Positions 36,083 to 51,840 of a DNA stretch of 59,739 bases are shown here, in pieces (positions within the stretch are counted from its first letter, which is position 1; every line of letters starts with the position of its first letter). This stretch comes from Actinomycetota bacterium. GTDB lineage: Bacteria; Actinomycetota; Acidimicrobiia; Acidimicrobiales; Ilumatobacteraceae. The position numbers and the translations under genes are program-made. The DNA is taken from the NCBI GenBank assembly GCA_016871395.1, contig VFYV01000012.1, positions 1-59,739 of the forward strand. The letters run 5' to 3'. The notes below the pieces were generated by a model. The model made no database searches, was not told the origin of the DNA, and saw nothing but the letters and a program-made list of their open reading frames with translations.

Positions 36083-38485
36083 TCACGGCGCGACGGTGGG
36101 GCTCGTTTCGCGTTCGACCAACACCTCTCGGAGTCGCGGGACCACACTCTCGACGACGATTCGGTCGAGAACGGGCTGTTCAATGTGCACTCCGTCGGCA
36201 CGGAGCTCCCCGGGAGTCGATTCGGCGGCGGCCACGACGACCGACCACTCCAGCCGGCGGATCTCGGGCCAACGCTGAATCCACGACCCCATCAGTGAGT
36301 TCCACGCATCCACCCGTGCTTCGTCGGCGAACGGCGCTCCACCCAGTGCCCCACCATGAATGTACGGGCTGTCGAACATCACGAGCGTGGCTTGCGCTTC
36401 ATCGATCGCCGTCATCAACGACGACATCACGAGTTCGTGGCGTGCGAGGAACTCCTCGTCCTCGACCGTGTACCAAATCGGATCACCCGGGTACCGCTGC
36501 GCCGACTGCTCGGGCACCGAGGCAATCTCCAGAACGAGATGCGGCTCGAACTCGGCGATCATGTCGCGCCAGACGGCCTCGAAAGTCGGGCAATAACTCA
36601 TGTCGAAGTCCATGTCGGCCCACCATTGGATTCGCTCCACCTCGACCAGAGGACAATTGCGCCCGCCGGCCCACACCACCCTGAATTGATCGGCAGCCAC
36701 GTTGTGTAGCGCCTGCGCCACACCGAATGACGAGGAGTCGCCAATCACCATCACTCGGATCAGGTCTGCTCGGGATGCGGAAAGCGCCTCGTCGATCATC
36801 GCACCCAGTCGCTCGGGATTTCCCCCGACCAACACCACGGTCGAATCCGAGCGAAGGTCGAAGTCCTGCAGAGAGGAACGAAATATGTCGGGCCCTCCGT
36901 AGTCGACGACGATGATCGGGCGGTCGGCGAAACCGTTCAACAAGGCGTCAACCATCTCTCCGGACTGGGTGATCGTCACGGCCGCTCGATCGTCATCGGT
37001 CACGGGGGCCAAAGCCGCGACACGCTCGCGCAACACACGACGTTCGATGAGTCCCACGCCGACCAGGATCACATCGGGCTCAAGGCTGTCGATCGCCTCC
37101 ACGGCGTCGACGATCGTCGGACAGTCGCGGAACACCTCGAGGCTCAAAGCGCAACCCGGTGCGCTCACATCCACCGACTCCACTTCGACCCCCGAGCGGG
37201 CGAGATCGACACCCGTGCGTAACTGTGAACCCAACACCAGCACACGCGGCGACGGCTGGGCGATCGTCGTCACGTCGGTGGGCCCACCTATCGTGGCGAA
37301 ATCGACCACCACCTCCGGCGCATCGAGGCCGGCCAGAACCACCGACTGCTGGGTGTCGACGAGCACCGTCAACGTCGCGACGCTGACCATGGAAGCGATC
37401 AACGCAATGCCGGCGATCATGGGACGCTTGAGCACGCGCCGCGTTCGCACCGGGCTTTCGATCACCCGGTACGAGACGAACCCGAGCGACACGCTGACGA
37501 CGATCCGCACGAGATCCAATGACCAGCCGTCGAATCCCATGCGATCCGGGCTCATCACCACGATCACCGGCCAGTGAACGAGATAAATGGAGTAACTGGC
37601 CCGACCGACCACCACCAGCGGACGACGCGCGAACAACCAGGCCAGCGGCCCGGTCCCACTCGCGGCGTGAATCACGATCGACGATCCCACCGCGACCGCT
37701 GCCAATCCTCCGCGATAGAGCCAGGCGTCCGACGCCGTGGCCAGAACCATTGCCAGCACCAACGCGCCGAACGCGGTGACCCCCGCGATCGAGGTCGCAA
37801 TTCGAGAATGCGATGACGTACTCGTCGGCACACGGCGAGCGACGACGAGCGCCAGGACACAGCCGATCAGCAACTCGGCGGCCCGCACGTGGGTGCCGTA
37901 GTAGCCGAGATTTCGCGAGTCGGTGAAGAGTGACGTAACGACGCTGACCCCGATGAGGGCCACCAGACCCGGCAACAAAAACGCCCGTTTTTTCGACAAC
38001 ACGACGAACACCACGGGGAAAAGCAAATAGAACTGTTCCTCGATGGCCAGGCTCCAGAAATGGATCACTGGTGACGGTGTCGACGTGAAGAGTTCGGCGT
38101 AGGTGGACTGGGCGGTGGCAAAACGCCAGTTGGCCAGGTATCCGAGCGAGGCACCGAGGTCCCCGCGCAACCGAGCCCCGTCGAAAAGGCCCCATAGCGA
38201 CGCGATCGTGACGACGGCCAGCACCACCAGCGCTGCCGGGGTCAGACGACGCAATCGTCGAGCCCAAAAGACCCGCAGCGCCACCCGTCCGTCCCGATCC
38301 GTCTCTGCCAACAGGAGCCGGGTGATGAGGAATCCGGACAACGTGAAAAACAACGACACCCCGAGGAAACCACCCGACATCCACGCGAGGTCGAGGTGGA
38401 ACAACAACACGCCCACCACCGCCACGGCCCTCAGGCCGTCCAGAGCGTCGATGCGCGACGGGCCGACGCCCGATGTGTCCCCCAC
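36083..38485 (-). CDS. AT3 O-acyltransferase with tandem SGNH domains, first degenerate
   Basis: This 800-residue protein has an acyltransferase-3 membrane domain (about 10-345; RIDALDGLRAVAVVGVLLFH at the start, then FWSLAIEEQFYLLFP and YSIYLVHWP), an extra span at about 355-375, and a large extracytoplasmic part. AT3-SGNH proteins such as OatA acetylate cell-wall or surface polysaccharides. The outer part seems duplicated. Residues 414-530 look like an SGNH domain with GSQ (419-421) instead of GDS, and residues 577-790 form an intact one with GDS (582-584) and DGVH (764-767). It starts at GTG 38485, leaderless. Confidence 0.85.
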   Translation of the reverse strand: MGDTSGVGPSRIDALDGLRAVAVVGVLLFHLDLAWMSGGFLGVSLFFTLSGFLITRLLLAETDRDGRVALRVFWARRLRRLTPAALVVLAVVTIASLWGLFDGARLRGDLGASLGYLANWRFATAQSTYAELFTSTPSPVIHFWSLAIEEQFYLLFPVVFVVLSKKRAFLLPGLVALIGVSVVTSLFTDSRNLGYYGTHVRAAELLIGCVLALVVARRVPTSTSSHSRIATSIAGVTAFGALVLAMVLATASDAWLYRGGLAAVAVGSSIVIHAASGTGPLAWLFARRPLVVVGRASYSIYLVHWPVIVVMSPDRMGFDGWSLDLVRIVVSVSLGFVSYRVIESPVRTRRVLKRPMIAGIALIASMVSVATLTVLVDTQQSVVLAGLDAPEVVVDFATIGGPTDVTTIAQPSPRVLVLGSQLRTGVDLARSGVEVESVDVSAPGCALSLEVFRDCPTIVDAVEAIDSLEPDVILVGVGLIERRVLRERVAALAPVTDDDRAAVTITQSGEMVDALLNGFADRPIIVVDYGGPDIFRSSLQDFDLRSDSTVVLVGGNPERLGAMIDEALSASRADLIRVMVIGDSSSFGVAQALHNVAADQFRVVWAGGRNCPLVEVERIQWWADMDFDMSYCPTFEAVWRDMIAEFEPHLVLEIASVPEQSAQRYPGDPIWYTVEDEEFLARHELVMSSLMTAIDEAQATLVMFDSPYIHGGALGGAPFADEARVDAWNSLMGSWIQRWPEIRRLEWSVVVAAAESTPGELRADGVHIEQPVLDRIVVESVVPRLREVLVERETSPTVAP

Positions 38486-38491
38486 GGCGTG

Positions 38492-38497: not shown

Positions 38498-38536
38498 CTT
38501 CTGGTTCCCACGAGGCGACGTACCCGTCAGTCGATT

Positions 38537-38554
38537 TCTGACACAGCGTCAGAT
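38537..38554 (+). promoter_or_regulatory. TetR-type operator, site 1 (acyl-CoA dehydrogenase operon)
   Basis: TCTGACACAGCGTCAGAT is an inverted repeat with 6-bp arms (TCTGAC/GTCAGA) and a 5-bp spacer. It lies 17 bp upstream of the -10 element at 38,572, over the expected -35 region. A further GTCAG at 38,526-38,530 makes an overlapping second repeat. Sites 2 and 3 are at 44,520 and 48,181. Confidence 0.65.
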
Positions 38555-38571
38555 CTCTCGGGGGTGGCGAC

Positions 38572-38577
38572 TAACGT
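38572..38577 (+). promoter_or_regulatory. -10 element TAACGT for the acyl-CoA dehydrogenase operon
   Basis: TAACGT is followed by 9 nt and the ATG at 38587, giving a leader of 2-3 nt at most. Confidence 0.4.
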
Positions 38578-38586
38578 CAATCCCTT

Positions 38587-39735
38587 ATGGATCTGCGCGA
38601 GACCGCCGACGAGTCCACGTTCCGACTCGAAGCCCGCACGTGGTTGGAAGCCAATGTTCCCGCCGAACCTCTCGCGAGCTTCGACACTGCCGAAGGCTTC
38701 ACCCAGCATCGGCGTTGGGAGAAAAAGTTGTACGACGGTCGCTGGTCGGCGGTGTCGTGGCCGGAACAATACGGAGGTCGCGGAGCCGACTACATCAAAT
38801 GGCTCATCTTCGAAGAGGAGTACTACCGCGCCGGCGCGCCCGGTCGCGTGAATCAGAACGGCATCTTCCTCCTCGGGCCCACCATCATGGAAGTGGGCAC
38901 CGACGCGCAGAAAGAGAAATTCCTCCCCAGCATGGCCTCGTCGGAGATCGTGTGGGGGCAAGCATGGAGTGAACCGAACGCGGGCAGCGACCTAGCGGGG
39001 ATCAAGAGCAAGGCCACGCGTGACGGCGACGACTGGATCCTGAACGGTCAGAAGATCTGGGCCAGTCGTGCCGTGTGGGCCGACTGGTGTTTCGGAATCT
39101 TCCGCACCGACCCCGAGGCCGAGCGACACCGCGGGCTCACCTTCATCCTGAGCCCGCTCGATCTGCCCGGAATCACTGTGCGCCCCATCGCTCAACTCGA
39201 TGGTGACACCGGCTTCGCCGAGATCTTCTTCGACGACGTGCGTGTACCGGTCGAAAACACCCTGGGCGAGGTGAACAAGGGATGGGGCGTCGCCATGGCC
39301 ACGGCCGGCTTCGAACGCGGAGTCAGCCTGCGTAGTCCGGCACGATTCAGCGAAGCCGTCAATCGACTCGTGGCTTTGTGGAAGCGACTCGGCGACAAGT
39401 CCGACACCGCGCTCGCCGATGCCGTCACCGACGTTTGGATGCAGGCGGAGGGCTACCGCCTGCACACGTACCAGACGGTCACCGGGATGTTGGAGGGACG
39501 TCCCATCGGTGCCGAGGCCAGTTTGAACAAGATCTTCTGGAGCGAGATGGACGTCCGCATCCACGAGATCGCACTGCAGATCATCGGACCGGAGGCCGAA
39601 CGCATGGAGGGCCCGCTCGAACGCTGGGTGGACGGATTCCTCTTTTCTTTGAGCGGCCCCATCTACGCCGGCACCAACGAGATTCAGCGCAACATCATCG
39701 CCGACCGTGTCTTGCAGTTGCCCCGGGGGATGTGA
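38587..39735 (+). CDS. Acyl-CoA dehydrogenase, larger subunit of a pair
   Basis: This 382-residue flavoprotein introduces a double bond into an acyl-CoA. It has the FAD/substrate motifs WGQAWSEPNAGSDLAGI and DWILNGQKIWASRA, and ends IYAGTNEIQRNIIADRVLQLPRG. The YEGT glutamate that is the base in medium-chain enzymes is Ala here, so the base, if any, must be elsewhere. The neighbouring shorter ACAD gene begins 3 nt downstream. Such pairs form alpha2-beta2 enzymes in actinobacterial steroid side-chain degradation. It is expressed from a promoter with the shared operator. Confidence 0.9.
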   Translation: MDLRETADESTFRLEARTWLEANVPAEPLASFDTAEGFTQHRRWEKKLYDGRWSAVSWPEQYGGRGADYIKWLIFEEEYYRAGAPGRVNQNGIFLLGPTIMEVGTDAQKEKFLPSMASSEIVWGQAWSEPNAGSDLAGIKSKATRDGDDWILNGQKIWASRAVWADWCFGIFRTDPEAERHRGLTFILSPLDLPGITVRPIAQLDGDTGFAEIFFDDVRVPVENTLGEVNKGWGVAMATAGFERGVSLRSPARFSEAVNRLVALWKRLGDKSDTALADAVTDVWMQAEGYRLHTYQTVTGMLEGRPIGAEASLNKIFWSEMDVRIHEIALQIIGPEAERMEGPLERWVDGFLFSLSGPIYAGTNEIQRNIIADRVLQLPRGM

Positions 39736-39738
39736 ATC

Positions 39739-40698
39739 ATGAGATTCGCTTTCACCGACGACCAGCGACTCTTCGCCGAGGGCCTTCGGGACCTTCTCGC
39801 CAAAGAGTGTCCGCCAGCACTGGTGCGCGACGTTTGGGAGAACGGCACCGGACACTCCCCCGAGTTGTGGGCGCACCTGTCGGGAATGGGGGTGCTATCG
39901 ATGCTCGCGCCCGAGGCTGACGGGGGTATGGGTGGCTCGTTCGTCGATGCCATCTTGCTCTTCCAAGAACTCGGTCGCGCCGCAGTGCCCGGCCCAGTGC
40001 TCGAACACATGGCGGTCGCCGTACCGGCTTTGGCCTCGACACCGTTCGGCGCGTCGCTGATCGCCGGCGAATCCATCGCCACGTTGTGGGTGGACGACTC
40101 TCCCTACGTGGCTCACGGCGGTGTGGCCGACCTGATCGTGCGCAGGGATTGCGTGCTCCGATCCTTCAAGTCGACTGATGCCCACGGCATGGACGGAGGT
40201 CGTCGATTGTTCACCGTCACCGGCGGCGAGCGCACGGACACCGACGTCAGCGTCGCCGGCCTGGACCCGTTCGATGCCATGGCTCTTGCCGTGGCCGCAT
40301 ACCTCATCGGGCTCTCGGAGCGAATGATCGAGATCGCCGCCGAGTACGCCCGAGTGCGCGAGCAGTTCGGCAAGCCGATTGGGTCGTTCCAAGCGGTCAA
40401 ACATCTCATGTCCGATGCGCTGCTCAAGGTCGAGTTCGCCAAGGCCCCCACCTATCGAGCAGCCTTCTCCGCCTCGACCGGCGCCACCACGATCGCCCGT
40501 GACATCAGCATGGCCAAGGCTCTCGCAGGTGAAGCCGCCTACCGCAGCAGTCGCAGCACCATGCAGGTGCACGGTGGAATCGGCTATACGTGGGAAGCCG
40601 ACTTGCAACTCTTCATGAAAAAGGCGTGGGCGCTCATGCGCTCGTACGGTGACGCCAACTTCCACCGTCGTCGCGTCTCCGGAGTCGTTCTGGCCTGA
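39739..40698 (+). CDS. Acyl-CoA dehydrogenase, shorter subunit of a pair
   Basis: This 319-residue ACAD is about 60 residues shorter than normal, with a reduced middle beta-domain (the segment between FGASLIAGESIATLW and DPFDAMALAVAAY). The C-terminal FAD-binding part is intact: REQFGKPIGSFQAVKH and QVHGGIGYTWEADLQLF. The length and adjacency to the preceding ACAD fit the beta subunit of an alpha2-beta2 heterotetramer. Which subunit keeps the catalytic base is not certain from sequence alone. Confidence 0.9.
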   Translation: MRFAFTDDQRLFAEGLRDLLAKECPPALVRDVWENGTGHSPELWAHLSGMGVLSMLAPEADGGMGGSFVDAILLFQELGRAAVPGPVLEHMAVAVPALASTPFGASLIAGESIATLWVDDSPYVAHGGVADLIVRRDCVLRSFKSTDAHGMDGGRRLFTVTGGERTDTDVSVAGLDPFDAMALAVAAYLIGLSERMIEIAAEYARVREQFGKPIGSFQAVKHLMSDALLKVEFAKAPTYRAAFSASTGATTIARDISMAKALAGEAAYRSSRSTMQVHGGIGYTWEADLQLFMKKAWALMRSYGDANFHRRRVSGVVLA

Positions 40699-40703
40699 TC
40701 GGC

Positions 40704-40709
40704 TAGAAC
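40704..40709 (+). promoter_or_regulatory. Possible -10 element TAGAAC, leaderless tauE-like start
   Basis: TAGAAC lies 6 nt before ATG 40716. The last base is C instead of T, as for glmU, so this is a weaker match. Confidence 0.3.
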
Positions 40710-40715
40710 TCTCCT

Positions 40716-41495
40716 ATGACATCCGAAGTCGCCCGGTATTCGATCGGACGCGTCATCGCCATCGGCATCGGGGCGGGGCTCTTGTCGGGCATGTTCGGCG
40801 TCGGAGGGGGTATCCTCGTCGTCCCCGCCCTCATGATGGTGTTGCGGTTCGATCAACGGCTGGCGAACGGCACGTCGCTCGGAGCGCTGCTTCCGATTTC
40901 GGTGGCCAGCCTCATCACCTATTGGAACCGTGACAACGTGGATTGGGCCATGGCCGCATGGTTGATCGCCGGCGCGCTGGGTGGCGCCGTACTCGGAACC
41001 AGATTGATCCACATCCTTCCGCGCAGGGTGCTCGGCTATCTGTTCGCAGCCACGTTGATCATCACCGCCATTCGTCTGTACGTCCCTATGACGGCCGATG
41101 GTCGCGATGCCATCACGGCGTCTACGGCGATCTCCTTGTTGATCATCGGACTGGTCGCCGGAACACTCGCCGGCCTGCTGGGAATCGGTGGAGGCATCGT
41201 GATGGTGCCGGCGATGGTGGTCCTCTTCAGCGAACTGAACGTGGTGGCCAAAGGCACGTCGGTCGCCGTCATCATCCCCACCTCGATCATGGGTACCTGG
41301 CGCAACTGGAAGGCCGACAACATCGACCTGAAGGTGGCCGCCATCGTCGGATTCGGTGGCATCGTCTCGGCGGTGGCCGGAGGCGTGATCGCCGACCACA
41401 TGTCGGAGGACCTGTCGAACGTGCTGTTCGCCTCACTGGTGTTGGTGGTGGCCGCGCGCATGATCGTCGATCTGCGCCGCGACACGTCGAGCTGA
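40716..41495 (+). CDS. TauE/SafE-type sulfite/organic anion exporter
   Basis: This 259-residue polytopic protein has seven to eight predicted spans and the two internal repeats of the family. Each repeat carries a glycine motif: GAGLLSGMFGVGGGILVVPAL near the start and LVAGTLAGLLGIGGGIVMVP in the middle. The family moves sulfite, sulfonates or related organic anions across the membrane. It follows the dehydrogenase pair by 17 nt but may have its own promoter. It converges with the copper-chaperone gene. Confidence 0.88.
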   Translation: MTSEVARYSIGRVIAIGIGAGLLSGMFGVGGGILVVPALMMVLRFDQRLANGTSLGALLPISVASLITYWNRDNVDWAMAAWLIAGALGGAVLGTRLIHILPRRVLGYLFAATLIITAIRLYVPMTADGRDAITASTAISLLIIGLVAGTLAGLLGIGGGIVMVPAMVVLFSELNVVAKGTSVAVIIPTSIMGTWRNWKADNIDLKVAAIVGFGGIVSAVAGGVIADHMSEDLSNVLFASLVLVVAARMIVDLRRDTSS

Positions 41496-41517
41496 GCCGT
41501 CGACGCGGCCGACGCTC
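41494..41517. terminator. Imperfect hairpin between convergent genes
   Basis: GAGC-C-GTCG...CGAC-GCTC spans the 20-bp gap between two converging stop codons. The stem is 8 bp with one bulge and a 7-nt loop. It could serve both strands, but there is no T-run on either side. Confidence 0.3.
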
Positions 41518-42001
41518 ACCCGTTCGGGTCGTTGGTCGCAACCTCGACGACCAGGCGGACCTCGCCCGCTTCGAGGAAGGTGAGAATCAATTCGAACGTG
41601 TCTCCCTCGACCAATGGTTCGACGAGACCTTCCAGCATCAGGTGTCGGCCACCGGGCACCAGGTCCACGCGGGAATTCGGCTCGAGCACCAAGTCGACGG
41701 CCTCCATCGTCGATTCCGTACCAGCCGCACCATGATTCTCGTGTCCCGCACCGTCATCGACTTTCGCTCCACTGGTGACGTGCAGCGAGGTCGACTCGGC
41801 ACGATCCGTCGACACTTCGACCAACTCGTCGGCCACCGGCGAGACGATGCTCATGTACACCGCGGCGACGTCGGACTGGGCGGGCGTCGGCCGGGCCCAC
41901 ACATTCGAGACCTTCAGTTCGTCGACGCCTGACGGTCCTGCACAAGCGACCAGAAGTGCCGCAACCAATGCGAACGTTCCGGTCCGGCTCTTCACGACCA
42001 C
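41516..42001 (-). CDS. PCu(A)C-type periplasmic copper chaperone lipoprotein
   Basis: This 161-residue protein has a lipoprotein signal (ALVAALLVAC, C20) and the PCu(A)C domain: VSNVWARPTPAQSDVAAVYMSI at the start, a Met/His site in TSLHVT and GGRHLMLEGL. The family delivers Cu(I) to the CuA centre of cytochrome oxidase or to other outer-face targets. A His-rich insertion (GHENHGAAG) between the two ligand groups is notable. It starts at GTG 42001 (or 41,995), one base after the stop of the PepSY gene, so the two and the LLM gene form one operon. Confidence 0.88.
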   Translation of the reverse strand: MVVKSRTGTFALVAALLVACAGPSGVDELKVSNVWARPTPAQSDVAAVYMSIVSPVADELVEVSTDRAESTSLHVTSGAKVDDGAGHENHGAAGTESTMEAVDLVLEPNSRVDLVPGGRHLMLEGLVEPLVEGDTFELILTFLEAGEVRLVVEVATNDPNG

Positions 42002-42002
42002 A

Positions 42003-43499
42003 TCATGACCGCTGCCCGAAGGCCACCTTCAACCGGCGGTTTCGCTGGATCACGAACTTGTCGAAAGCCAGGATGAGCAGGGCGCTGGCCCCCCATTGGG
42101 GGTACACGACTCCCACCACGACGGCGATGACGACGAGACCGCGTCCGAGATGGACTTCGGCCGGGCGACGCGGCAAACCGAGTGTTCCCCGGCGACGGCG
42201 CTTCGAATACATCACGACGGCCGAGATGACCGACCACAGCGTGAGGACACAGGTGAGCGTCATCAGAATTCGCGACACGATGCCCCATTGGGTCCCCATG
42301 TGGATGCTCACCGTGGTGTCGACCGCCTGCGACACCGAGCCGTATCCATAGACGTCTTGTTGTCCCAACGTCGCGCCGCTGAACTGGTCGATGAAGACGT
42401 CCTTGGCTTCACCGGTCTTGCGAGGCCACGAGTTCGACACGGTGAAGCTTCCGTACAAAGGATTGCCGGCGTCGTCCACGCCGTTCGACGGGAAGTGGAT
42501 CGTGTAGTTCGGCTTCATGCCCTCTTCGCTCGCGATCTGCACCACCGAATCGAGCGAGAGCGGCGTCGGCGTCTCGGCGCCCGACTCCGGACGGTACGAA
42601 GCGGGAATCGGAACGTCTCCGGTGTTCCAGTTGATCTGATTCCCGAGACGATCGAGGTCTCCCTTCACGCCGACGGCACTGGCCGGCGCATCGGTCCACG
42701 TGTTCGGACTGATCTCGTTGGCGAGCGCCGTGAAGTTCGGCCCCCAATATGTCGACCACGGCAATCCGGAAGCGGCGACGAACAGCAACATGATGAACAG
42801 CACCGCACCGGGAAGAGCGTGCAGGTCGCGCCACCTGGCGCGGCCCTTCTTGCCGAGTCGGAACGACCACATGCGCTTGCCGTTGACTTCGGATTTCGCT
42901 TCGCGGGACGTGCGGGGCCAGAACAGATAGAGCCCGGTCAGAGCGAGGATGACCAACCACGTGCCGGCCAGTTCCAGAATCAAGTCGCCCACGACGTAGT
43001 CGCGCATCACCTTGTCTCCGTCCCACAATGCGGAAACGGCGGGCAAAGACACGGTCAGGCTGTCGTTGTTCAAGTGGCCGTGGAAAGTGTTCGCCCATCG
43101 GACCAGAGTGGTCTGAGACTCGTCAGCGCCGAGGAACTCCCCCGTGTAGGGGTTCACGTACGCCGAGCGGCCGCTGTCCAGTCCGAAAACGGTCGAGGAG
43201 CCCGCGTCACGCGGAGGCGTCAGCGACACGATCATGTCGTCACCAATGTCGCTCTCCACCGTCTCGGCCTGAACGTCGAACGACACCATCTCCGATCCCG
43301 CTTCCACTCGACGCAGATCCGATTGAAGCCCGTCTTGGATCGGTTGGGTGTACAGGATCACCAAGCCGGTGATGGCGAACATCACCAGAAAGGGTGCGAC
43401 GATGATTCCGGAGTAGAAGTGGACTCGCCAGAGATTGCGCCACCTCTTGCTGGCCTCGGCCTGCTGGCGTTCGATCGTTTCGATTTCCTCGACCCTCAT
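42003..43499 (-). CDS. PepSY-associated transmembrane protein
   Basis: This 498-residue membrane protein has the PepSY-TM layout: an N-terminal span (about 25-45, SGIIVAPFLVMFAITGLVIL) then a large outer segment with an ANTFHGHL His motif, paired spans around 170-190 and 240-260, another outer PepSY-like stretch, and C-terminal spans. The last third has VDTTVSIHMGTQWG. Members of this family are linked to metal, heme or siderophore-iron reduction at the membrane. ATG 43499 overlaps the stop of the upstream LLM gene (ATGA). Confidence 0.87.
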   Translation of the reverse strand: MRVEEIETIERQQAEASKRWRNLWRVHFYSGIIVAPFLVMFAITGLVILYTQPIQDGLQSDLRRVEAGSEMVSFDVQAETVESDIGDDMIVSLTPPRDAGSSTVFGLDSGRSAYVNPYTGEFLGADESQTTLVRWANTFHGHLNNDSLTVSLPAVSALWDGDKVMRDYVVGDLILELAGTWLVILALTGLYLFWPRTSREAKSEVNGKRMWSFRLGKKGRARWRDLHALPGAVLFIMLLFVAASGLPWSTYWGPNFTALANEISPNTWTDAPASAVGVKGDLDRLGNQINWNTGDVPIPASYRPESGAETPTPLSLDSVVQIASEEGMKPNYTIHFPSNGVDDAGNPLYGSFTVSNSWPRKTGEAKDVFIDQFSGATLGQQDVYGYGSVSQAVDTTVSIHMGTQWGIVSRILMTLTCVLTLWSVISAVVMYSKRRRRGTLGLPRRPAEVHLGRGLVVIAVVVGVVYPQWGASALLILAFDKFVIQRNRRLKVAFGQRS

Positions 43500-44473
43500 G
43501 CAACGCCCTTCGCTCGACACCTGTCGTCGGTTCCCGAACATCCACCGGAACTCCGACGGGCGGACACCACCTCGGAGAGTCGGTCGAGCATGCGCGGATC
43601 ACTGGTGGCGGGAACCACGATGAACTCGTCGGCACCGGCTTCTTCGACCGCGTCCAGGAGGTCGCTCAGAGCGGAGGCGTCGTGCAGAGGCATGGCCTCG
43701 GCGAGCCCCTTGGCCAACTCGGGCGAGAACACCTTCAGGTACGCCTCGGCGAAGCCGCGCAGCGTCGGTTTGGCATCCTCGCCCAGGGCCACGAACGAAC
43801 CGGTCACCAGACGGGGCGCATCGGCTCGACCAGCCTCGCGCCATGCGGATTCCGTGGCGCGAAACAGCCTGGCCGCCTCGGCGGCGTCACCGAGCAGGGT
43901 GAAGCCGCTGACACCGACCGCCCACCTGGCCGCACGGGCCAACGACTTGGGCCCCATCGCCGACGCCATGACGGGCGGACCACCGGCTTGTAGGGGTGCG
44001 GGCCCCACGCGTTCGCCGTCGGCCGCTGGGCCCCCGGCCCACAAACGCTTCATCTCGACCACCGCCTCGTCGAGTCGACGGTGGCGACCCGCGAACGGTG
44101 ATCCCAACGCGGCGTAGTCCTGCTGGCGGCCACCGACTCCGACCGCCACCTCCACGCGACCTGCCGACACCACGTCCATCGACGCCAATTCCTTGGCCAC
44201 CAACGCCGGTGCGTGCCACGGCAGCACCGCGACGTTCACCAGCACCCGCACCCGCTCGGTCAGAGCCGCCGCCGCCGTGCACAGGGTGAAGCCGTCGAGG
44301 TTGTGAAACGTGATCCGCTCTCCGGCCGACACGCTCGAATACGGACCGACGTCGATACCCCGACACCAGGCCAACAGCCGACTCCGGTCGAGGCCCTCGG
44401 CCATTTGAGGTAGAGCCACACCCACGGTCATCCGACGGGGCGGGGCCGGGGAGGATGTCGAGGTCGCGACCAT
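43496..44473 (-). CDS. LLM-class flavin/F420-dependent oxidoreductase
   Basis: This 325-residue TIM-barrel protein belongs to the luciferase-like monooxygenase superfamily. The opening VGVALPQMAEG, the middle VAVLPWHAPALVAKELASMD and GRVEVAVGVGGRQQDY are typical of F420-using members. The substrate is not known. Its ATG at 44473 lies 6 nt after TATTCT, so it leads a three-gene operon with PepSY and PCu(A)C; a functional link to these is not obvious. Confidence 0.85.
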   Translation of the reverse strand: MVATSTSSPAPPRRMTVGVALPQMAEGLDRSRLLAWCRGIDVGPYSSVSAGERITFHNLDGFTLCTAAAALTERVRVLVNVAVLPWHAPALVAKELASMDVVSAGRVEVAVGVGGRQQDYAALGSPFAGRHRRLDEAVVEMKRLWAGGPAADGERVGPAPLQAGGPPVMASAMGPKSLARAARWAVGVSGFTLLGDAAEAARLFRATESAWREAGRADAPRLVTGSFVALGEDAKPTLRGFAEAYLKVFSPELAKGLAEAMPLHDASALSDLLDAVEEAGADEFIVVPATSDPRMLDRLSEVVSARRSSGGCSGTDDRCRAKGVA

Positions 44474-44479
44474 CCCCGA

Positions 44480-44485
44480 AGAATA
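44480..44485 (-). promoter_or_regulatory. -10 element TATTCT, leaderless LLM start
   Basis: On the minus strand TATTCT is followed by 6 nt and the ATG at 44473. Confidence 0.5.
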
Positions 44486-44519
44486 CTCTCAGCCCTGCTC
44501 AGACCGATCAGGCGCAGAA

Positions 44520-44537
44520 TCTGACACACCGTCAGAT
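44520..44537 (+). promoter_or_regulatory. TetR-type operator, site 2 (amidohydrolase operon)
   Basis: TCTGACACACCGTCAGAT differs from site 1 only at the tenth base, inside the spacer. It ends 7 bp before the -10 element at 44,545, so it covers the -35 to -17 region of this promoter. It is in the gap shared with the divergent LLM gene. Confidence 0.7.
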
Positions 44538-44544
44538 ACCGGTG

Positions 44545-44550
44545 TAACCT
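44545..44550 (+). promoter_or_regulatory. -10 element TAACCT, leaderless amidohydrolase start
   Basis: TAACCT is followed by 7 nt and the ATG at 44558. Confidence 0.5.
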
Positions 44551-44557
44551 CGCTGGC

Positions 44558-45766
44558 ATGCGTGAACTGCCCAAGATCATTTCCGTCGACGATCACGTCA
44601 CCGAGCCGGCCACCGTCTGGACCGACCGCCTGCCGAAGAAGTACCACGACGTGGGCCCGCGCATCGAGCGCTTGCCCGTCAAGGAAATGACGTTCATCGG
44701 CGGCAAGTTCACCGCCGTTCCGGGGGACAAGGGCGACGAGGGTCCCTTGGCCGACTGGTGGTTCTACGAGGATCTGCGTCGCCCACTCACCCGCCTCGAC
44801 ACCGCCGTCGGTTTCGAACGCGACGAGGTCACCGTCACCGGCATCACCTACGACGAGATGCGTCAGGGCAGTTACAAATTGACGGATCGCCTCGCGGACA
44901 TGGACGTGGCCGGTATCGAAGCCTCGCTCTGCTTCCCCACGTTCCCGCGTTTCTGCGGCCAGACGTTCTACGAGGCGCAGGACAAGGAACTTGCCATGCT
45001 CAGCGTGCATGCCTACAACGACTGGATGCACGACGAGTGGTGCGGCGAATCCGGCGGACGCATGTTGCCGTTGGGTCTCATCCCGCTGTGGGATCCACAG
45101 GCGGCCGCCGACGAGATTCGTCGCAACGCCGCGCGGGGCTTTCGCGCCGTGGCGTTCAGCGAGATCCCCTCGAACCTCAACCTGCCCAGCATCCACGACG
45201 CCGACGGCTACTGGTTGCCGTTCTTCGAGGCCTGCAACGACACGGGGACCGTCATCTGCATGCACATCGGGTCCGGATCCAAGATGCCCAGCACGTCGCC
45301 CGACGCCCCGGCCGCGGTGGGCTCGACGCTCACGTTCGCCAACTGTTGCTTCAGCATGGTCGACTGGTTGATGAGCGGTCACTTCACCCAGTTCCCCGAT
45401 CTGAAGATCGCCTACAGCGAGGGCCAGATCGGCTGGATTCCCTACATCCTCGAGCGGGCCGACCGTGTGTGGGAGGACAACCGGGGCTGGGGCGGAATCG
45501 CCGACAAGGTGCTCGAGCCACCGAGCGAGTTGTTCAAGAAGCACGTCTACGGATGTTTCTTCGACGACCCGCACGGTCTGCGCTCCCTCGTCGAGATCGG
45601 TGAGGACAACGTCACCTACGAGTGCGACTACCCGCACTCGGACTCCACCTGGCCACACACCGCCAAGATCGCGTACGAGCAGACCCTCGGTCTCACCGAC
45701 GAGCAGGTGTACAAGGTGATCCGCGGCAATGCCATCAAGATGCTCGGCATCACTCACCTGAAGTAG
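44558..45766 (+). CDS. Amidohydrolase-2 family metal-dependent hydrolase
   Basis: This 402-residue TIM-barrel hydrolase begins IISVDDHVTEPATVW, the metal-site strand of the amidohydrolase-2 group (decarboxylases and C-C or C-N hydrolases such as ACMSD). CMHIGSGSKMPSTSP and CDYPHSDSTWP carry further metal or active-site residues. Relatives are common in actinobacterial steroid and aromatic degradation clusters, where many may act on ring-opened CoA intermediates. It is followed after 2 nt by an acyl-CoA ligase, so they are co-expressed under the shared operator. Confidence 0.85.
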   Translation: MRELPKIISVDDHVTEPATVWTDRLPKKYHDVGPRIERLPVKEMTFIGGKFTAVPGDKGDEGPLADWWFYEDLRRPLTRLDTAVGFERDEVTVTGITYDEMRQGSYKLTDRLADMDVAGIEASLCFPTFPRFCGQTFYEAQDKELAMLSVHAYNDWMHDEWCGESGGRMLPLGLIPLWDPQAAADEIRRNAARGFRAVAFSEIPSNLNLPSIHDADGYWLPFFEACNDTGTVICMHIGSGSKMPSTSPDAPAAVGSTLTFANCCFSMVDWLMSGHFTQFPDLKIAYSEGQIGWIPYILERADRVWEDNRGWGGIADKVLEPPSELFKKHVYGCFFDDPHGLRSLVEIGEDNVTYECDYPHSDSTWPHTAKIAYEQTLGLTDEQVYKVIRGNAIKMLGITHLK

Positions 45767-45768
45767 TC

Positions 45769-47301
45769 GTGCTCACCATCCCGCAGGTCGTGCGGGCGGC
45801 CGCCGAGTTCGGCGACCGAGAGGCCTTGATCGCCGGCGATCGACGTTGGACGTTCTGCGAACTCGTCGGCGAAATCGAGCGGTGCGCGCGATCCTTCATC
45901 GCCCAAGGTCTTCGTCCCCACGACCGTGTGGCCGTGTGGGCCCCCAACTCGCCCGAGTGGATCTTCGCCGCTCTCGGCGCGCAAATGGTCGGGGGTGTGC
46001 TCGTGCCCATCAACACCCGCTTCAGAGGTGCCGAGGCCGCCCACGTGATCGAACGAAGTGGCGCCTCGCTCCTCTTCGTCCAGAACGGCTTCCTCGACGT
46101 CGACTACTCGTCCGAGGTCAGCGATCATGAGACTCCGTCGTTGGCTCGTGTCGTCGACATGGCCGGATTCTCCTGGGACGAGTTCGTTCACGCCGGAGAG
46201 CACGTCCCCTCGTCGGTGCTGGCCGAACGCGAGGGCGCCGTTCGGCCCGATGACCTCTCGGACATCATCTTCACCTCCGGTACCACCGGTCGCCCCAAAG
46301 GCGTGATGTCGCGTCACGATCAAACGATTCGGGTGTTCCAGGAATGGTCGACGATCGTCGGACTCGGCGCCGACGATCGCTACCTCATCGTCAATCCCTT
46401 TTTCCACACCTTCGGCTACAAGGCCGGATTCCTCGCCTGTCTTCTTCGCGGAGCGACCATGTTGCCGTTGGCGGTGTTCGACGTCCCCACGGTGTTGCGC
46501 ACGGTGAGCGACGAACGCGTGACCACCCTTCCCGGGCCACCGACGTTGTACCTCAGCATCCTGAATCATCCCGCCCGAGACTCCCATGATCTCTCCTCGT
46601 TGCGCCTCGCCGTCACCGGGGCCGCCGCCGTGCCGGTCGAGATGATCCGGCGCATGCGCCAGGAACTGTGCTTCGAGGTGATCCTCACGGCCTACGGACT
46701 CACCGAGTCCACCGGCACCATCACCATGTGTCGTCGCGACGACGATCCCGAGACCATCTCGTCCACCAGTGGTCGAGCCATCGACGGTGTCGAAGTGCGC
46801 ATCGTCGATGAGAACGACGTCGAGGTCCCGCGGGGAACAGCCGGCGAGATCGTGTGTCGCGGTTACAACGTCATGCCCGGATACTTCGACGACCCCACGT
46901 CCACGGCCGAGACCATCGACGAACGAGGTTGGCTGCACACGGGCGACATCGGGGTGATGGACGAGCGCGGCTACCTGACCATCACCGACCGACTGAAGGA
47001 CATGTTCATCGTCGGGGGGTTCAACGCCTATCCGGCCGAGATCGAGAACGCTTTGCTGGGCCATCCCGCGGTGGCCCAGGTGGCGGTCATCGGCCGACCC
47101 GACGAACGGATGGGCGAGGTCGGACACGCCTTCGTGGTCCGGCGCGAGGGTCGGTCCGTCGACGAGAACGAGATCATCGAGTGGGCACGAGTCCGTATGG
47201 CCAACTACAAGGTGCCCCGCGCCGTCACCTTCGTGAAGTCACTCCCGTCGAATGCCAGCGGAAAGGTGTTGAAGTTCGAATTGCGCGCGCTCTTGAGGTG
47301 A
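45769..47301 (+). CDS. Acyl-CoA ligase, FadD3-like
   Basis: This 510-residue AMP-forming ligase activates a carboxylic acid to its CoA ester. ATP/AMP motifs are IIFTSGTTGRPKGV, the adenine-binding AYGLTESTG, the hinge TGDIGVMDERGYLTITDRLKD and the C-terminal catalytic Lys in PSNASGKVLKFELR. Among FadD types its length and sequence feel closest to FadD3, which activates the C/D-ring remnant of steroids (HIP), but that is inference. The start is GTG 45769, immediately after the amidohydrolase stop. Confidence 0.88.
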   Translation: MLTIPQVVRAAAEFGDREALIAGDRRWTFCELVGEIERCARSFIAQGLRPHDRVAVWAPNSPEWIFAALGAQMVGGVLVPINTRFRGAEAAHVIERSGASLLFVQNGFLDVDYSSEVSDHETPSLARVVDMAGFSWDEFVHAGEHVPSSVLAEREGAVRPDDLSDIIFTSGTTGRPKGVMSRHDQTIRVFQEWSTIVGLGADDRYLIVNPFFHTFGYKAGFLACLLRGATMLPLAVFDVPTVLRTVSDERVTTLPGPPTLYLSILNHPARDSHDLSSLRLAVTGAAAVPVEMIRRMRQELCFEVILTAYGLTESTGTITMCRRDDDPETISSTSGRAIDGVEVRIVDENDVEVPRGTAGEIVCRGYNVMPGYFDDPTSTAETIDERGWLHTGDIGVMDERGYLTITDRLKDMFIVGGFNAYPAEIENALLGHPAVAQVAVIGRPDERMGEVGHAFVVRREGRSVDENEIIEWARVRMANYKVPRAVTFVKSLPSNASGKVLKFELRALLR

Positions 47302-47318
47302 CGCCGTTCGATCCGAAT

Positions 47319-48140
47319 TCAGTCGTAGATGGTCGCCCGGCGCACTCGTCGATGTTGGCTGCCGTAATCCGCCACCGCGTAGTGCATGGTGTAACGATTG
47401 TCCCACAATGCACCGTCGCCGCTGGTCCACTTCCAGCGCACGATGTTCTCGGGGCGCTCGGAAACGGCGAAAACCGCCTCGAGAACGTGGCGACTCTCGA
47501 CCTCGCTCATCCCCACGATGCTGCGGGTCCAACCCCGATTGGCGAAGATCGACTTCTCCCCCGACGAGTGATGTCGACGCACGAAGGGATGAACGAACGT
47601 GGCGGTCTGGGGCGGCGAACCCATGACCACCTGGAGATCATCCACGAGCCTCTGCATGGGTGCGCTGAGTCGACGGTACGCCGCGATCTGATTGCTCCAC
47701 ATCGTGTCACCCGCACCCACCGCCGAGATCTCGCAGTAGAACAACGATGCCTTGGGCGGATTCTCTATGAAGGGCACGTCGGTGTGCCACACCGCCGTGA
47801 GGTTCGGGTTGAAACCGGGAGCATGCGAATCGATCAGCAGGATCTCGGGGAATCCCTCGTCGCGCAGCGTGGGAATCTTGCGATTGTCCGACGCGGTCTC
47901 GGTGGTCGCCGCCACGTGCGAACCGAAACAACGCGCCAATCGCGACTGATCCGACGGCGTGAAGTGGGCACCGGGGAAGAACAACACCAATCGTTCGTCC
48001 CACCACCCGAGCAACGAGTCGGCGAGCTCCCGTAGGTCCTCATCGGAGTAGTCGCTGACTCGCAGACCCCGGACCACGGCCCCCAAGGCGCCGTCCAGTC
48101 GCTCGACCGACACCCGTGAGGACACCTTCGGTACCGACAT
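47319..48140 (-). CDS. TauD/TfdA-family Fe(II)/2-oxoglutarate dioxygenase
   Basis: This 273-residue dioxygenase has the facial triad HxD at H119/D121 (VWHTDVPF) and the distal His at about 253 (TMHYAVADY), with the 2-oxoglutarate Arg in QHRRVRRATI. The family hydroxylates sulfonates, herbicide-like phenoxyacids or other acids, often releasing sulfite or phenol. It is a single gene starting at ATG 48140, leaderless, divergent from the alcohol dehydrogenase operon and sharing the intergenic region that holds operator site 3. Confidence 0.9.
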   Translation of the reverse strand: MSVPKVSSRVSVERLDGALGAVVRGLRVSDYSDEDLRELADSLLGWWDERLVLFFPGAHFTPSDQSRLARCFGSHVAATTETASDNRKIPTLRDEGFPEILLIDSHAPGFNPNLTAVWHTDVPFIENPPKASLFYCEISAVGAGDTMWSNQIAAYRRLSAPMQRLVDDLQVVMGSPPQTATFVHPFVRRHHSSGEKSIFANRGWTRSIVGMSEVESRHVLEAVFAVSERPENIVRWKWTSGDGALWDNRYTMHYAVADYGSQHRRVRRATIYD

Positions 48141-48146
48141 GGTGCC

Positions 48147-48152
48147 AACCTA
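48147..48152 (-). promoter_or_regulatory. -10 element TAGGTT, leaderless TauD-type start
   Basis: On the minus strand TAGGTT is followed by 6 nt and the ATG at 48140. Confidence 0.5.
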
Positions 48153-48180
48153 CCCCTCGAGGGGACGGACGTCGTTCGAT

Positions 48181-48198
48181 TCTGACTGGCCGTCAGAT
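48181..48198 (+). promoter_or_regulatory. TetR-type operator, site 3 (ADH-ligase-SDR-TetR operon)
   Basis: TCTGACTGGCCGTCAGAT keeps both arms of sites 1 and 2; only spacer bases differ. It lies about 18 bp upstream of a TAGAGT -10 at 48,216 and in the gap shared with the divergent TauD-type gene. The operon it controls ends with a TetR gene, which makes autoregulation likely. Confidence 0.7.
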
Positions 48199-48215
48199 TG
48201 ACCGGGCTCCGGTAC

Positions 48216-48255: not shown

Positions 48256-49359
48256 ATGAAGGGAATCGTGTACGACGGGAAGACCACCTCGTTGGTCGAC
48301 GGGCTCACCCTGCGCGAACCCGGTCCCCGCGAGGTGATCGTGCAGATCGCCGCCGCCGGGTTGTGTCACAGCGACATCTCGTACATGAACGGCCTCTACC
48401 CGGTTCCGTCGCCCGGTGTCTGTGGTCATGAGGCAGCCGGCGTCGTGTCCGAGGTGGGCAATGCTGTCACCCACGTTCAGCCGGGTGATCACGTGATCGT
48501 GGCCACTCTGGCCGCCTGCGGCTTCTGCAAGTTCTGCATGGACGGTCTACCGACGCTGTGTCGCTCCACATTGGCCAACTGGAGCCAGCCCTTCACCCTC
48601 GACGGCGAGCCCATCTACAACTTCGCCGCCACCAGTGCGTTCGCCGAGCGAACCGTGGTGCGCGACGTGCAGTGCGTGAAGATCCCCAAGGACGTCCCCC
48701 TCACGTCGGCGGCCCTCGTCGGCTGCGGCGTGGTGACTGGCATGGGTGCGGTGTTCAATCGCGCCAATGTGAAACGCGGTCAATCGGCTCTCGTGTTCGG
48801 TGTCGGTGGTGTCGGCCTCAACGTCATCCAAGCCCTCCGGGTGCAGGGGGCCACCACCATCATCGCCGTCGACACCGTCATGGAGAAAGAACCGTTGGCC
48901 AAGCAGTTCGGCGCCACGCATTTCCTCGACGGTCGTCGCGAGGACTTGGTGGCCGCCGTGGGCGAGATCATGCCGTACTCGAACACCGCGCCCCGCGGAC
49001 CCTTCAACGCCGGCGGAGTGAACTGGTCGTTCGACTGTGTCGCCCACCCGACCGTCACCTACAACGCGCTCGAGTGCCTCGATTGGGGTGGAACCGTCGT
49101 CATCATCGGCGTCGCCGGTCAGACCGCCGAGTTCAAGGGTCTGTACGGACGCCTGACCCAGGTCGATCGCGGCATCATCGGTTGTCGCTACGGAACTATC
49201 AGCCCCCAGCGCGACATCCCCTACATCATCGATTTGTATCGTCGCGGCGAGGTGCTACTCGATGAATTGGTGAGCGCCACGTTCCCCGTCGTCGATTGGG
49301 AGGACGCCGTCCACGGCCTCGAGGGCGGAACGATCGCCCGTGCGGTCATCACTTTCTGA
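48256..49359 (+). CDS. Zinc-dependent alcohol dehydrogenase
   Basis: This 367-residue medium-chain dehydrogenase has the catalytic zinc ligands C37 (GLCHSD) and H58-E59 (CGHEAAG), and a complete structural zinc site C88, C91, C94, C102. The NAD-binding GVGGVGLNVIQ follows. It oxidises an alcohol to aldehyde or ketone with NAD(P). Start ATG 48256 has GAAGGGGG just upstream; GTG 48238 in the same frame is the alternative. It heads a five-gene operon with a CoA ligase, two SDRs and TetR, which reads as an alcohol-to-acid-to-CoA-ester route. Confidence 0.92.
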   Translation: MKGIVYDGKTTSLVDGLTLREPGPREVIVQIAAAGLCHSDISYMNGLYPVPSPGVCGHEAAGVVSEVGNAVTHVQPGDHVIVATLAACGFCKFCMDGLPTLCRSTLANWSQPFTLDGEPIYNFAATSAFAERTVVRDVQCVKIPKDVPLTSAALVGCGVVTGMGAVFNRANVKRGQSALVFGVGGVGLNVIQALRVQGATTIIAVDTVMEKEPLAKQFGATHFLDGRREDLVAAVGEIMPYSNTAPRGPFNAGGVNWSFDCVAHPTVTYNALECLDWGGTVVIIGVAGQTAEFKGLYGRLTQVDRGIIGCRYGTISPQRDIPYIIDLYRRGEVLLDELVSATFPVVDWEDAVHGLEGGTIARAVITF

Positions 49360-49375
49360 ACCGGGGACCCCGAAC

Positions 49376-50938
49376 ATGGCTCGTGATCTCTCGACGAACA
49401 TCGACACCTCTGGCAAGACCCTCTGGCAGTTGATATGCGAGCGGGCCATCACCACCCCGGAAAAACGAATGGCGTTCGACGAACACGGACGTTCCATGTC
49501 CTACAGCGAGTACAAGAATCGTTGCGAGCGAGTCGCTGCGGGGCTGTCGCAGATCGGCATCGGCGAGGGCACGAACGTTTCGTGGATCCTCCCGTCGCGT
49601 TTCGAGTCGCTGGTTCTCACCGGAGCCCTTTCGCGACTCGGAACAATTCAGAACCCGATTCTCCCGATTTACCGCCATCGAGAGATCTCCTTCATCACCG
49701 CGCAATCGGACTGCAAGGTCCTGATCGTCCCGGGAGTCTTCCGCGGTTTCGACTTCCCCCCGATGGCCCGCGAGATCGTGGAGGCGGGTGGCCGCGAGGT
49801 GCGCATCATCGTCGCCGACCCCGATCTTCCCGAGGCTGACCCCGATGCGGTGGGCTTACCCCCGTATCGCGCCGACCTGCACGGTCTACGTTGGTTGTTC
49901 TACTCCTCGGGCACGACCGCGGATCCCAAGGGGGCCAAACACAGTGACGCCACCATGGGCGCGGCCAACCTCGGAATGCAGTGGAGCATGCAGGTCGGTC
50001 CGGACGACAAGGCGGCGGTGGTGTTCCCGATCACGCACGTGGGCGGGCTCATCTGGTTGTTCAACGCCATGGAGACCGGTGTCGAACTGTTGATGGTCGA
50101 GACCTTCGACCCTGTGAACACGCCACGGTGGCTCGGTGAGAACGGGTGCACGTGCGCCGGTGCCGGCACCGTGTTCTGGTTGACCTACCTGAACGCACAA
50201 CGACAACTGCCGTCGGAGGCGAAGTTGTTGCCGAACGTGCGGATCTTCAACGGTGGTGGCTCTCCGAAGCCACGATCTCTCCACGCCGAGATGATGGACG
50301 CGTTCAGTGCGCCACTGATCGGTGGATGGGGACTCACCGAGTCCCCCATCAACACGATGGTCCACATCGACGATCCCGACGACAAGAAGGCCAACACCGA
50401 CGGACGGGCCTGTCCCGGAGTGACGATTCGCACCGTGATGGACGGCGTCGAGACGGGCCGCGGTGTCGAGGGGGAATTGCGCGTGAAAGGCGGCCAGGTG
50501 TGTCTGGGATACCTGGACTCCAACCTCGACGCGGATGCTTTCGACGAAGACGGCTGGTTTCGCACCGGTGATCTCGGTGTGATCGACGCCGAGGGCTACA
50601 TCAGCATCACCGGACGTCTGAAAGACATCATCATCCGAAAGGGCGAGAACATCTCGGCCAAGGAGATCGAGGACCTGTTGTTCACGCACCCGGCCGTCGC
50701 CGATGCCGCGGTAATCGGGCTACCCGATGCAACCAGCGGCGAACGCGCCTGCGCGGTGGTCGTACTGAAGGCCAACGGGACACTGACCTTGGTCGACATG
50801 GTGTCCCATCTGAAGAGCGCCCAATTGTCAGTACACAAGATCCCCGAACAATTGGAGATCGTCGAAGCCCTGCCCCGCAATCCCAGTGGCAAGGTGCTGA
50901 AAAAGGATCTTCGGGCCACCTACGGCAAGAATTCGTGA
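49376..50938 (+). CDS. AMP-dependent acyl-CoA synthetase
   Basis: This 520-residue ligase has the P-loop-like FYSSGTTADPKGAKHSD, the GWGLTESPIN adenine motif, RTGDLGVIDAEGYISITGRLKDIIIRKG and the C-terminal Lys in RNPSGKVLKKDLR. It resembles cyclohexanecarboxylate- or FadD-type ligases; the acid is unknown. GTG-free start ATG 49376, 17 nt after the dehydrogenase. In operon context it should activate the acid made after the alcohol dehydrogenase step, or a parallel one. Confidence 0.9.
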   Translation: MARDLSTNIDTSGKTLWQLICERAITTPEKRMAFDEHGRSMSYSEYKNRCERVAAGLSQIGIGEGTNVSWILPSRFESLVLTGALSRLGTIQNPILPIYRHREISFITAQSDCKVLIVPGVFRGFDFPPMAREIVEAGGREVRIIVADPDLPEADPDAVGLPPYRADLHGLRWLFYSSGTTADPKGAKHSDATMGAANLGMQWSMQVGPDDKAAVVFPITHVGGLIWLFNAMETGVELLMVETFDPVNTPRWLGENGCTCAGAGTVFWLTYLNAQRQLPSEAKLLPNVRIFNGGGSPKPRSLHAEMMDAFSAPLIGGWGLTESPINTMVHIDDPDDKKANTDGRACPGVTIRTVMDGVETGRGVEGELRVKGGQVCLGYLDSNLDADAFDEDGWFRTGDLGVIDAEGYISITGRLKDIIIRKGENISAKEIEDLLFTHPAVADAAVIGLPDATSGERACAVVVLKANGTLTLVDMVSHLKSAQLSVHKIPEQLEIVEALPRNPSGKVLKKDLRATYGKNS

Positions 50939-50951: not shown

Positions 50952-51815
50952 ATGACCGAAAAGAAAATCACTGCTCGTTCCTTGGCCGGCGAGGCCCAAG
51001 CCGGGCGCAAACCGGCCAAGAAGAAGCCGGCACGCAAGGTGGCTCCGACCTACAAGCGACTTCGGGGCAGCCGGGTGTTCATCACCGGCGCTGGCTCGGG
51101 TATCGGACGGGCGACCGCCATCCGCTTCGCCGCCGAGGGAGCCAACGTGGCCATCGCCGACCTGCGTGGCGCCAAAGAGACCGCAGCCGAGATCAGCGGG
51201 GGCGGCGGCCAAGCGGTCGCCTACGACCTCGATGTCACCGACGCCGCCGCGGTGCACAGGGTCGTCGACAAGGCGGCCAAAACCCTCGGTGGGCTCGACA
51301 TCGTCTGCAACATCGCCGGCATCGGGCATTTCGCCAATAGCCACGAAGAGACACCCGAGTGGTTCGACCGCATCGTCTCGGTCAATCTCAACGGGACGTT
51401 CTACGTCTCGCGATACGCCCTGCCCCACCTCTTGAAGGCCTACGAGGAGACCGGTGTCGACGGGGTCATCGTGAACACCGCCTCGACGTCGGGACTCATG
51501 GGTGCGCCGTGGAGTGCCGCGTACTGCGCGAGCAAGGGCGGGGTCGTCAATCTCACCCGCGCCCTCGCCTACGAGTACCGGGGCAAAGGTGTGCGGGTGA
51601 ACGCCATCGCCCCCGGCGGCACCAACACCAACATCGTCACCTCGTTCATGAATCTGCCCCCCAACGCCGACTACAAACTCATGGGCAAGATCATGACCCC
51701 GATGGACCAGGCCGAGCCCGACGAGATGGCGAACCTCTTCGCGTTCATCGCGTCGAACGAGGGTCGATACATGACCGGCTCCGTCGTCGTGCTCGACGGT
51801 GGCATCACCTGCTGA
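50952..51815 (+). CDS. SDR-family oxidoreductase with Lys/Pro-rich N-terminal extension
   Basis: This 287-residue short-chain dehydrogenase has the NAD(P) motif [10 protein letters not shown] after an unusually long N-terminus. Residues 1-37 are basic and low-complexity ([16 protein letters not shown]). The catalytic Ser, Tyr and Lys are in NTASTSG and YCASK. It likely interconverts a hydroxyl and a keto group on a CoA ester or alcohol in the operon's pathway. GAGGAAAC precedes ATG 50952. The extension's role is unknown. Confidence 0.9.
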
Positions 51816-51840
51816 CAGTTCGGCGAGAGGAATCGAAACA

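Follow-up and report, generated by a model that had tools for sequence, protein, structure and literature searches.

In mycobacteria and Rhodococcus, KstR2 is described as an autoregulated TetR repressor of the C/D-ring (HIP) genes, including echA20, ipdAB, ipdC and the Rv3548c short-chain dehydrogenase/reductase (SDR), with sites lying between divergent genes, as far as the available parts of the reports go (PMC3068626, PMC5380842); the operator motif given in one of them is AnCAAGnnCTTGnT (PMC3068626). KstR, also a TetR repressor, acts on sterol side-chain degradation and, in the accessible part of the source, covers the A/B rings as well (PMC8399759). The operator of EthR is described as exceeding a simple palindrome in size and complexity (PMC4482099). 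EdcR represses a steroid (estrogen) pathway and has been proposed to regulate itself (PMC8700777). Here, we analysed a contig of 59,739 nucleotides from an actinomycetotal genome of the family Ilumatobacteraceae (GCA_016871395.1, VFYV01000012.1; hereafter the window), for which an original prediction, made from the letters alone, had proposed that three near-identical inverted repeats are the operators of a TetR encoded in the same stretch (52742..53377, plus strand). Judging from sequence and comparative data, this TetR is very probably a dimeric repressor of a dispersed steroid-type regulon, covering side-chain and C/D-ring genes and including itself.

The three repeats are real. The exact pattern TCTGAC-N5-GTCAGA, to which no strand was assigned, occurs at 38537..38553 (operator 1, TCTGACACAGCGTCAGA), 44520..44536 (operator 2, TCTGACACACCGTCAGA) and 48181..48197 (operator 3, TCTGACTGGCCGTCAGA), nowhere else in the window, and not once in any of 100 dinucleotide shuffles. 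It had been written as TCTGAC-N4-CGTCAGAT, which has the same letters in an asymmetric frame, the symmetric unit being the one given above. A logo built from 83 sites (see below) limits conservation to the palindrome and one flanking position, usually A/T. With three mismatches allowed, the window holds 8 matches against 8.2 expected by chance; since this count does not exceed chance, only the tight motif is informative. The divergent intergenic location was borne out for all three sites: operator 1 lies between an acyltransferase-3 gene (minus strand) and a pair of acyl-CoA dehydrogenase (ACAD) genes (plus strand), operator 2 between a luciferase-like gene (minus) and an amidohydrolase-FadD3 unit (plus), and operator 3 between a TauD-type gene (minus) and an operon of alcohol dehydrogenase (ADH), ligase, SDR, SDR and TetR genes (plus). 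The start codons of the right-hand genes follow at 33 bp, 21 bp and 40 or 58 bp, respectively; genes were called from the longest open reading frame (ORF) and scoring of GC at third codon positions (GC3), and start positions are rough. Candidate -10 boxes, predicted 7-18 bp downstream, can be placed by eye 8-18 bp past the sites (TAACGT at 38572, TAACCT at 44545, TACTAG at 48213), and have no support from a scan for sigma-70 consensus promoters, which found 0 in 38400-48400 against a shuffle mean of 1.4.

The regulon had been called local, which had to be amended, as it extends over the genome. In the same genome (1.95 Mb in 43 contigs, 87% complete, the window being contig C12), seven exact sites were found, four of them on other contigs (C3:6395, C6:36409, C10:31778 and C10:38859), and a local regulon of three sites was thus rejected. 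Five further sites have one mismatch; C3:86566, C10:23061 and C10:36384 stand at ACAD or luciferase-like genes, and C14:2081 and C19:1566, both inside ORFs, were not counted as operators. The proposed genome scan with two mismatches gave 63 matches versus 24 in the control, an excess as a whole in which single matches at two to three mismatches are not usable.

The sites are not scattered randomly inside genes. Among the 83 distinct exact sites collected from 13 genomes, 70 lie near a gene 5' end (no more than 150 bp before the longest ORF or within its first 250 bp), compared with 27% of random positions, and 10 lie deep inside an ORF, compared with 66%. Overlong ORFs are among the cases behind these 10 (e.g., L017, where the ECH domain starts past the site). 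The expected conservation upstream of the orthologous operon was observed, as an exact site heads the ADH-to-TetR operon in all 12 assessable loci of the genus, seven more loci cut by contig ends being left out of this count. Among the 11 genomes outside the genus that carry an ortholog, an exact site stands at the head of the tetR unit in three: in G037 it precedes tetR itself by 17 bp, in G051 it precedes an SDR-TetR pair by 37 bp, and in G031 it sits where a similar pair has its predicted 5' end. Near-matches occur at the tetR unit in three others, overlapping the predicted tetR start in G054 (one mismatch) and G060 (two mismatches) and heading a gene chain that ends in tetR in G041 (one mismatch). 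In 10 genomes from outside the genus (G040 and nine that have the ortholog), 27 of 58 sites head a chain encoding a relative, at 40% identity or more, of some protein in the own-genome set, rising to 37 of 58 at any identity; relatives of that set make up 41 of 133 chain genes versus 19 of 145 other nearby genes. In G008 (L124:2467-2525), three tandem operators spaced 21 bp apart, of which two are exact and the third has a single mismatch, were observed upstream of a gene joining major facilitator superfamily (MFS) and ATP-binding cassette (ABC) domains, and exact pairs with the same spacing were seen in G003, G004, G007, G010 and G017. This distance corresponds to two helical turns and suggests that binding is cooperative.

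Across 61 genomes, the presence of the TetR ortholog and that of the sites go together. A genome was counted as having the ortholog when a match spanning almost the full protein scored 116 bits or more (30 genomes); one fragmented case (G014) was added, and the next best match scored 43 bits. At least two exact sites are present in 29 of 31 genomes with the ortholog and in 2 of 30 genomes lacking it (Fisher P = 9e-13), and outside the genus in 9 of 11 versus 1 of 26 (P = 4e-6); as the genomes are related, these P values are indicative only. Exact sites have a median of 11 per genome in the first group (277 in total) and of 0 in the second (13 in total), and a reversed-pattern control had no exact match in any of the 61 genomes. 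The level of one mismatch is noisier: two ortholog genomes rise above their controls (G055, 16 vs 2; G039, 13 vs 0), but so do genomes without the ortholog (G034, 11 vs 2; G059, 10 vs 1; G033, 6 vs 1). G060 has the ortholog and one exact site. In three genomes without ortholog (G001, G019, G026), the lone exact site has a G at the end of its spacer, where R-N3-Y is the usual form, and for this reason looks like chance; single sites also occur in G043 and G057. Taken together, the co-occurrence, the placement at the TetR operon and the enrichment at gene starts support the original proposal of one TetR acting through one operator on a gene set that includes itself, and the window TetR is likely the cognate regulator of the sites, as far as genome comparison can tell.

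The protein itself has the features of the family. As stated originally, it is the only TetR of the window, where TetR_N was found once (ten times in the genome). Its 211 residues carry an N-terminal TetR_N helix-turn-helix (34.9 bits) and an all-helical C-terminal domain, TetR_C_38 (82.4 bits), both above cut-off, and the structure model has nine helices at a predicted local distance difference test score (pLDDT) of 92.9. A recognition helix, (S/A)(P/A)ATFY(Q/H)YF, is conserved in an alignment of 17 sequences. The closest solved structure is EthR (template modeling score (TM) by query 0.73-0.77, about 19% identity), which is also the best full-length match of the TetR profile in the PDB (E 1.4e-12). 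In that search, 56 distinct sequences were found at E<=0.01, none of them named KstR2 or KstR, as judged by chain names, some of which are generic; the PDB codes that we take to be those of KstR and KstR2 were not among the chains listed. Since FasR and FadR, both solved with acyl-CoA, appear lower in the list of structural relatives, an acyl-CoA ligand is plausible.

The units downstream of the operators agree with the original description. Behind operator 1, on the plus strand, follow an ACAD (38587..39735, assigned by Pfam, best PDB relatives 4X28 and 6WY8/6WY9) and its partner ACAD (39739..40698), which is IpdE2-like at 170.9 bits, under the NCBIfam cut-off of 450; the divergent acyltransferase-3 protein (36083..38485, minus strand) was recognised by a domain match. 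Operator 2 precedes an Amidohydro_2 protein (Pfam, 44558..45766, plus) and a FadD3-family acyl-CoA ligase (NF005801, 758.6 bits against a cut-off of 657; 45763..47301, plus), facing a luciferase-like monooxygenase (domain match, 43496..44473, minus). The operon behind operator 3, all on the plus strand, consists of a zinc ADH (48256..49359, alternative start GTG at 48238), an acyl-CoA ligase identified by domain and family models (49340..50938), an SDR oxidoreductase (Pfam, 50952..51815), an SDR of the PRK07791 subfamily (469 bits against 373; 51799..52740) and the TetR gene as its last member. The divergent TauD/TfdA-type dioxygenase (domain match, 47319..48140, minus) is a conserved neighbour, adjoining the site in relatives too.

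Similar genes stand behind the sites elsewhere in the genome. The exact site on C6 heads an operon of PRK07938 hydratase, CoA-transferase alpha chain (3e-97 to 6CON) and NMO protein; IpdB was not identified. C10 carries a contiguous minus-strand run of an ACAD, a ChsH1/ChsH2-type fusion (with ChsH1/ChsH2 among its solved relatives), a second ACAD, a PRK07855 lipid-transfer protein, a P450 and a steroid 3-ketoacyl-CoA thiolase (PRK07850), and its site at 38859 is flanked by an aldehyde dehydrogenase on one side and an Amidohydro_3 protein on the other. At the exact site of C3, a binding-protein gene faces an MFS-ABC fusion, a Liv-type permease fusion and a flavin mononucleotide (FMN) oxidoreductase, and at the site with one mismatch an ACAD faces a pair of ACAD and PRK07831 SDR. 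In the C3 transporter (L016:6472-8691), an MFS domain and an ABC ATPase form a single 739-residue protein, and a Liv-type permease-permease-ATPase fusion comes next; in G008, G040 and G051, relatives of about the same length also have exact sites upstream. FadD3, the PRK07791 and PRK07831 SDRs, the PRK07938 hydratase, the PRK07850 thiolase and the PRK07855 lipid-transfer protein all pass their NCBIfam cut-offs. The names EchA20, IpdA, IpdC, IpdF, Ltp2, FadA5 and ChsE for site-bearing genes are our assumption, in part taken from gene order; the 6CON-like alpha chain is presumably IpdA, and we take a site-bearing SDR to be the equivalent of Rv3548c.

The split catabolic pathway of the original prediction thus stands as one fitting gene set, amended to the scale of the genome, and the site-bearing genes can be named, by homology, as those of the C/D rings and the side chain of steroid catabolism, plus a transporter. 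Several observations weigh against a steroid regulon under this TetR, some concerning the pathway and others the regulator. On the pathway side, strong KshA is absent from all six genus relatives sampled (G019, which lacks the TetR, and five that have it; best E 1.5e-4), and in the genome of the window, 87% complete as stated, KshA_C reaches 22.8 bits, under the cut-off of 23.3; in G004, with neighbouring stretches included, 23.6 bits is just above it. The HsaC model stays below cut-off in all 13 genomes tested, being weak in the genus and strong, though still sub-cut-off, only in G038 and G041. KstD is doubtful, because only one full-length FAD_binding_2 match was found, in the genome of the window alone. 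Given these absences and the breadth of the ACAD and SDR families, the regulon could instead serve the catabolism of fatty acids or other isoprenoid acids, with the steroid names merely transferred by homology. We regard this as unlikely, although it is the strongest contender: the steroid-specific models for FadD3 and the 3-ketoacyl-CoA thiolase were passed, the solved relatives include ChsH1/ChsH2 and the 6CON CoA-transferase, and the co-regulated set resembles the KstR2 regulon as far as it is given in the available parts of the literature (PMC3068626, PMC5380842). Strong KshA does occur in G031, G054, G038, G041 and G058. No site with up to two mismatches lies within 1.5 kb of five loci with a strong KshA match or of a sixth with a weak one (three further strong loci fall outside this sample). 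Thus, the steroid-type regulon covers much of the KstR2-controlled set together with side-chain genes, and probably does not include ring A/B opening. Because the sampled genus members lack strong KshA and HsaC, intact steroids may not be the substrate, and partly degraded ones are possible.

On the regulator side, G047 carries an ortholog whose helix is unchanged, yet no exact site (two one-mismatch sites vs one in the control), G040 has three sites beside pathway-type genes and no ortholog even by profile search, and G021 has five sites and no ortholog, in a genome 60% complete. Moreover, no clear site stands immediately before tetR in five of the 11 non-genus ortholog genomes (G038, G039, G047, G055 and G058), and nine other TetRs are encoded in the genome, one of which (C9:23934) has a two-mismatch match near its start (C9:23832). 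G040, G047 and the other TetRs would fit a regulon that is real but whose sites are bound by another transcription factor, the TetR being just a member gene. This is improbable, since co-occurrence holds across the 25 families sampled, the ortholog being present in 11, and sites or near-matches at the tetR start persist as gene order changes (G037, G054, G060). None of the nine other TetR genes has an exact or one-mismatch site nearby, the nearest being 18.9 kb away; none of them was named KstR-like by NCBIfam at E<=1e-8, the presence of a KstR model in that library being uncertain, and a PDB comparison covered two of the nine. Distant relatives of the window TetR point the same way. A profile search of genome contigs with the TetR alignment confirmed 593 loci, and among the best 80 of these (822 kb, scanned with 6-kb flanks) exact sites occur at 25 and sites with zero or one mismatch at 48, with none in the control. 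The closest loci among the matches listed belong, by record title, to Ilumatobacteraceae, Acidimicrobiales or Actinomycetota, including an acIV bin. Within the same 80, the Streptomyces and proteobacterial or myxococcal relatives (about 36-45% identity) still keep sites, with 14 of 23 Streptomycetaceae loci having a one-mismatch and none an exact site, and 6 of 12 loci with proteobacterial or myxococcal titles having at most one mismatch, three of them exact. Three Streptomyces loci (L276:8622, L257:8893, L278:8687) share the one-mismatch site TCTGATGTACCGTCAGA about 2 kb from the TetR relative; in L276 this site lies between an ORF and a thiolase-like gene. Four records of metagenome-assembled genomes titled Bifidobacterium breve (L205, L206, L233, L235) contain TetR orthologs at 45-78% identity, and their titles look mislabelled. 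That the repeats are chance or a mobile element with no regulatory meaning, for which nothing but the small copy number speaks, is practically negligible given the empty shuffles and reversed-pattern controls, the confinement of logo conservation to the palindrome with its flanking A/T, and the position at gene starts.

Regulation by the window TetR can be pictured as follows. Without inducer, a TetR dimer would bind the near-perfect palindrome (A/T)TCTGAC-R-N3-Y-GTCAGA(A/T), which in the window precedes the start codons by about 20-60 bp, and would block RNA polymerase at one of the divergent promoters or at both. The protein would be released when an intermediate of the pathway, in all likelihood an acyl-CoA derived from a steroid, enters the C-terminal pocket. 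Because tetR is the last gene behind operator 3, production of the regulator would be tied to its own operon, giving a negative feedback in which TetR is made only while that operon is on.

Among the known systems, KstR2 resembles the present one in the genes behind the operator. fadD3 belongs to the KstR2 regulon, and exact sites here precede genes assigned to FadD3, the PRK07791 SDR, the PRK07938 hydratase, the CoA-transferase alpha chain and NMO, with the PRK07831 SDR behind a one-mismatch site. The operator differs from the published KstR2 motif, and here the C/D-ring genes share it with side-chain genes and a transporter. Matches to the KstR2-type motif number two in 259 kb of own-genome DNA scanned; one lies at 34231 of the window, inside a thiolase ORF (33195-34355), and is probably chance. 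Membership in KstR2 was rejected on the operator and on the lack of a KstR2-named chain among the PDB profile matches, and the system is best filed, on present comparisons, as a TetR-controlled steroid regulon that works like KstR2. The KstR operator differs as well from TCTGAC-N5-GTCAGA, and the coverage of the A/B rings described for KstR, as far as its source goes, contrasts with the six KshA loci lacking a nearby site. EthR, although closest in structure and profile, has other target genes; orthology, with an adjacent ethA monooxygenase, was rejected in view of the low identity and of the position of the window TetR at the end of an ADH-ligase-SDR-SDR operon. EdcR shares the TetR type, the steroid pathway and the proposed autoregulation, whereas its operator is TnnCnnTACnAnTnGTAnnGnnA and its targets are the estrogen genes of Caenibius, according to the accessible text (PMC8700777). 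The operators of BkaR, EdcR and MftR, as given in the parts of the sources available, also differ from the present one. A literature search did not find TCTGAC-N5-GTCAGA as an operator in the texts covered, in one of which the motifs are logos, so that a mycobacterial match may exist there (PMC4482099).

In a broader and still tentative reading, an EthR-close TetR lineage distinct in sequence from KstR and KstR2 might act as master repressor of steroid genes for C/D rings, side chain and uptake that are merged into one regulon, the operator being almost invariant across families of Acidimicrobiia and kept with zero to one mismatch by part of the Streptomyces, proteobacterial and myxococcal relatives; the genus, whose named relatives are freshwater Ilumatobacteraceae and which seemingly lacks ring A/B opening, may then scavenge HIP-like, partly degraded steroids from others. 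For uncultured Acidimicrobiia, the finding offers a testable regulatory code, as a scan with the 17-bp pattern would find the regulon in any genome with the ortholog, and unnamed genes sharing the operator (amidohydrolases, luciferase-like and TauD-type oxygenases) may be missing steps of the pathway. It also suggests that control of actinobacterial steroid catabolism by KstR and KstR2 is not universal, and points to a possible cross-feeding on steroid fragments in lakes.

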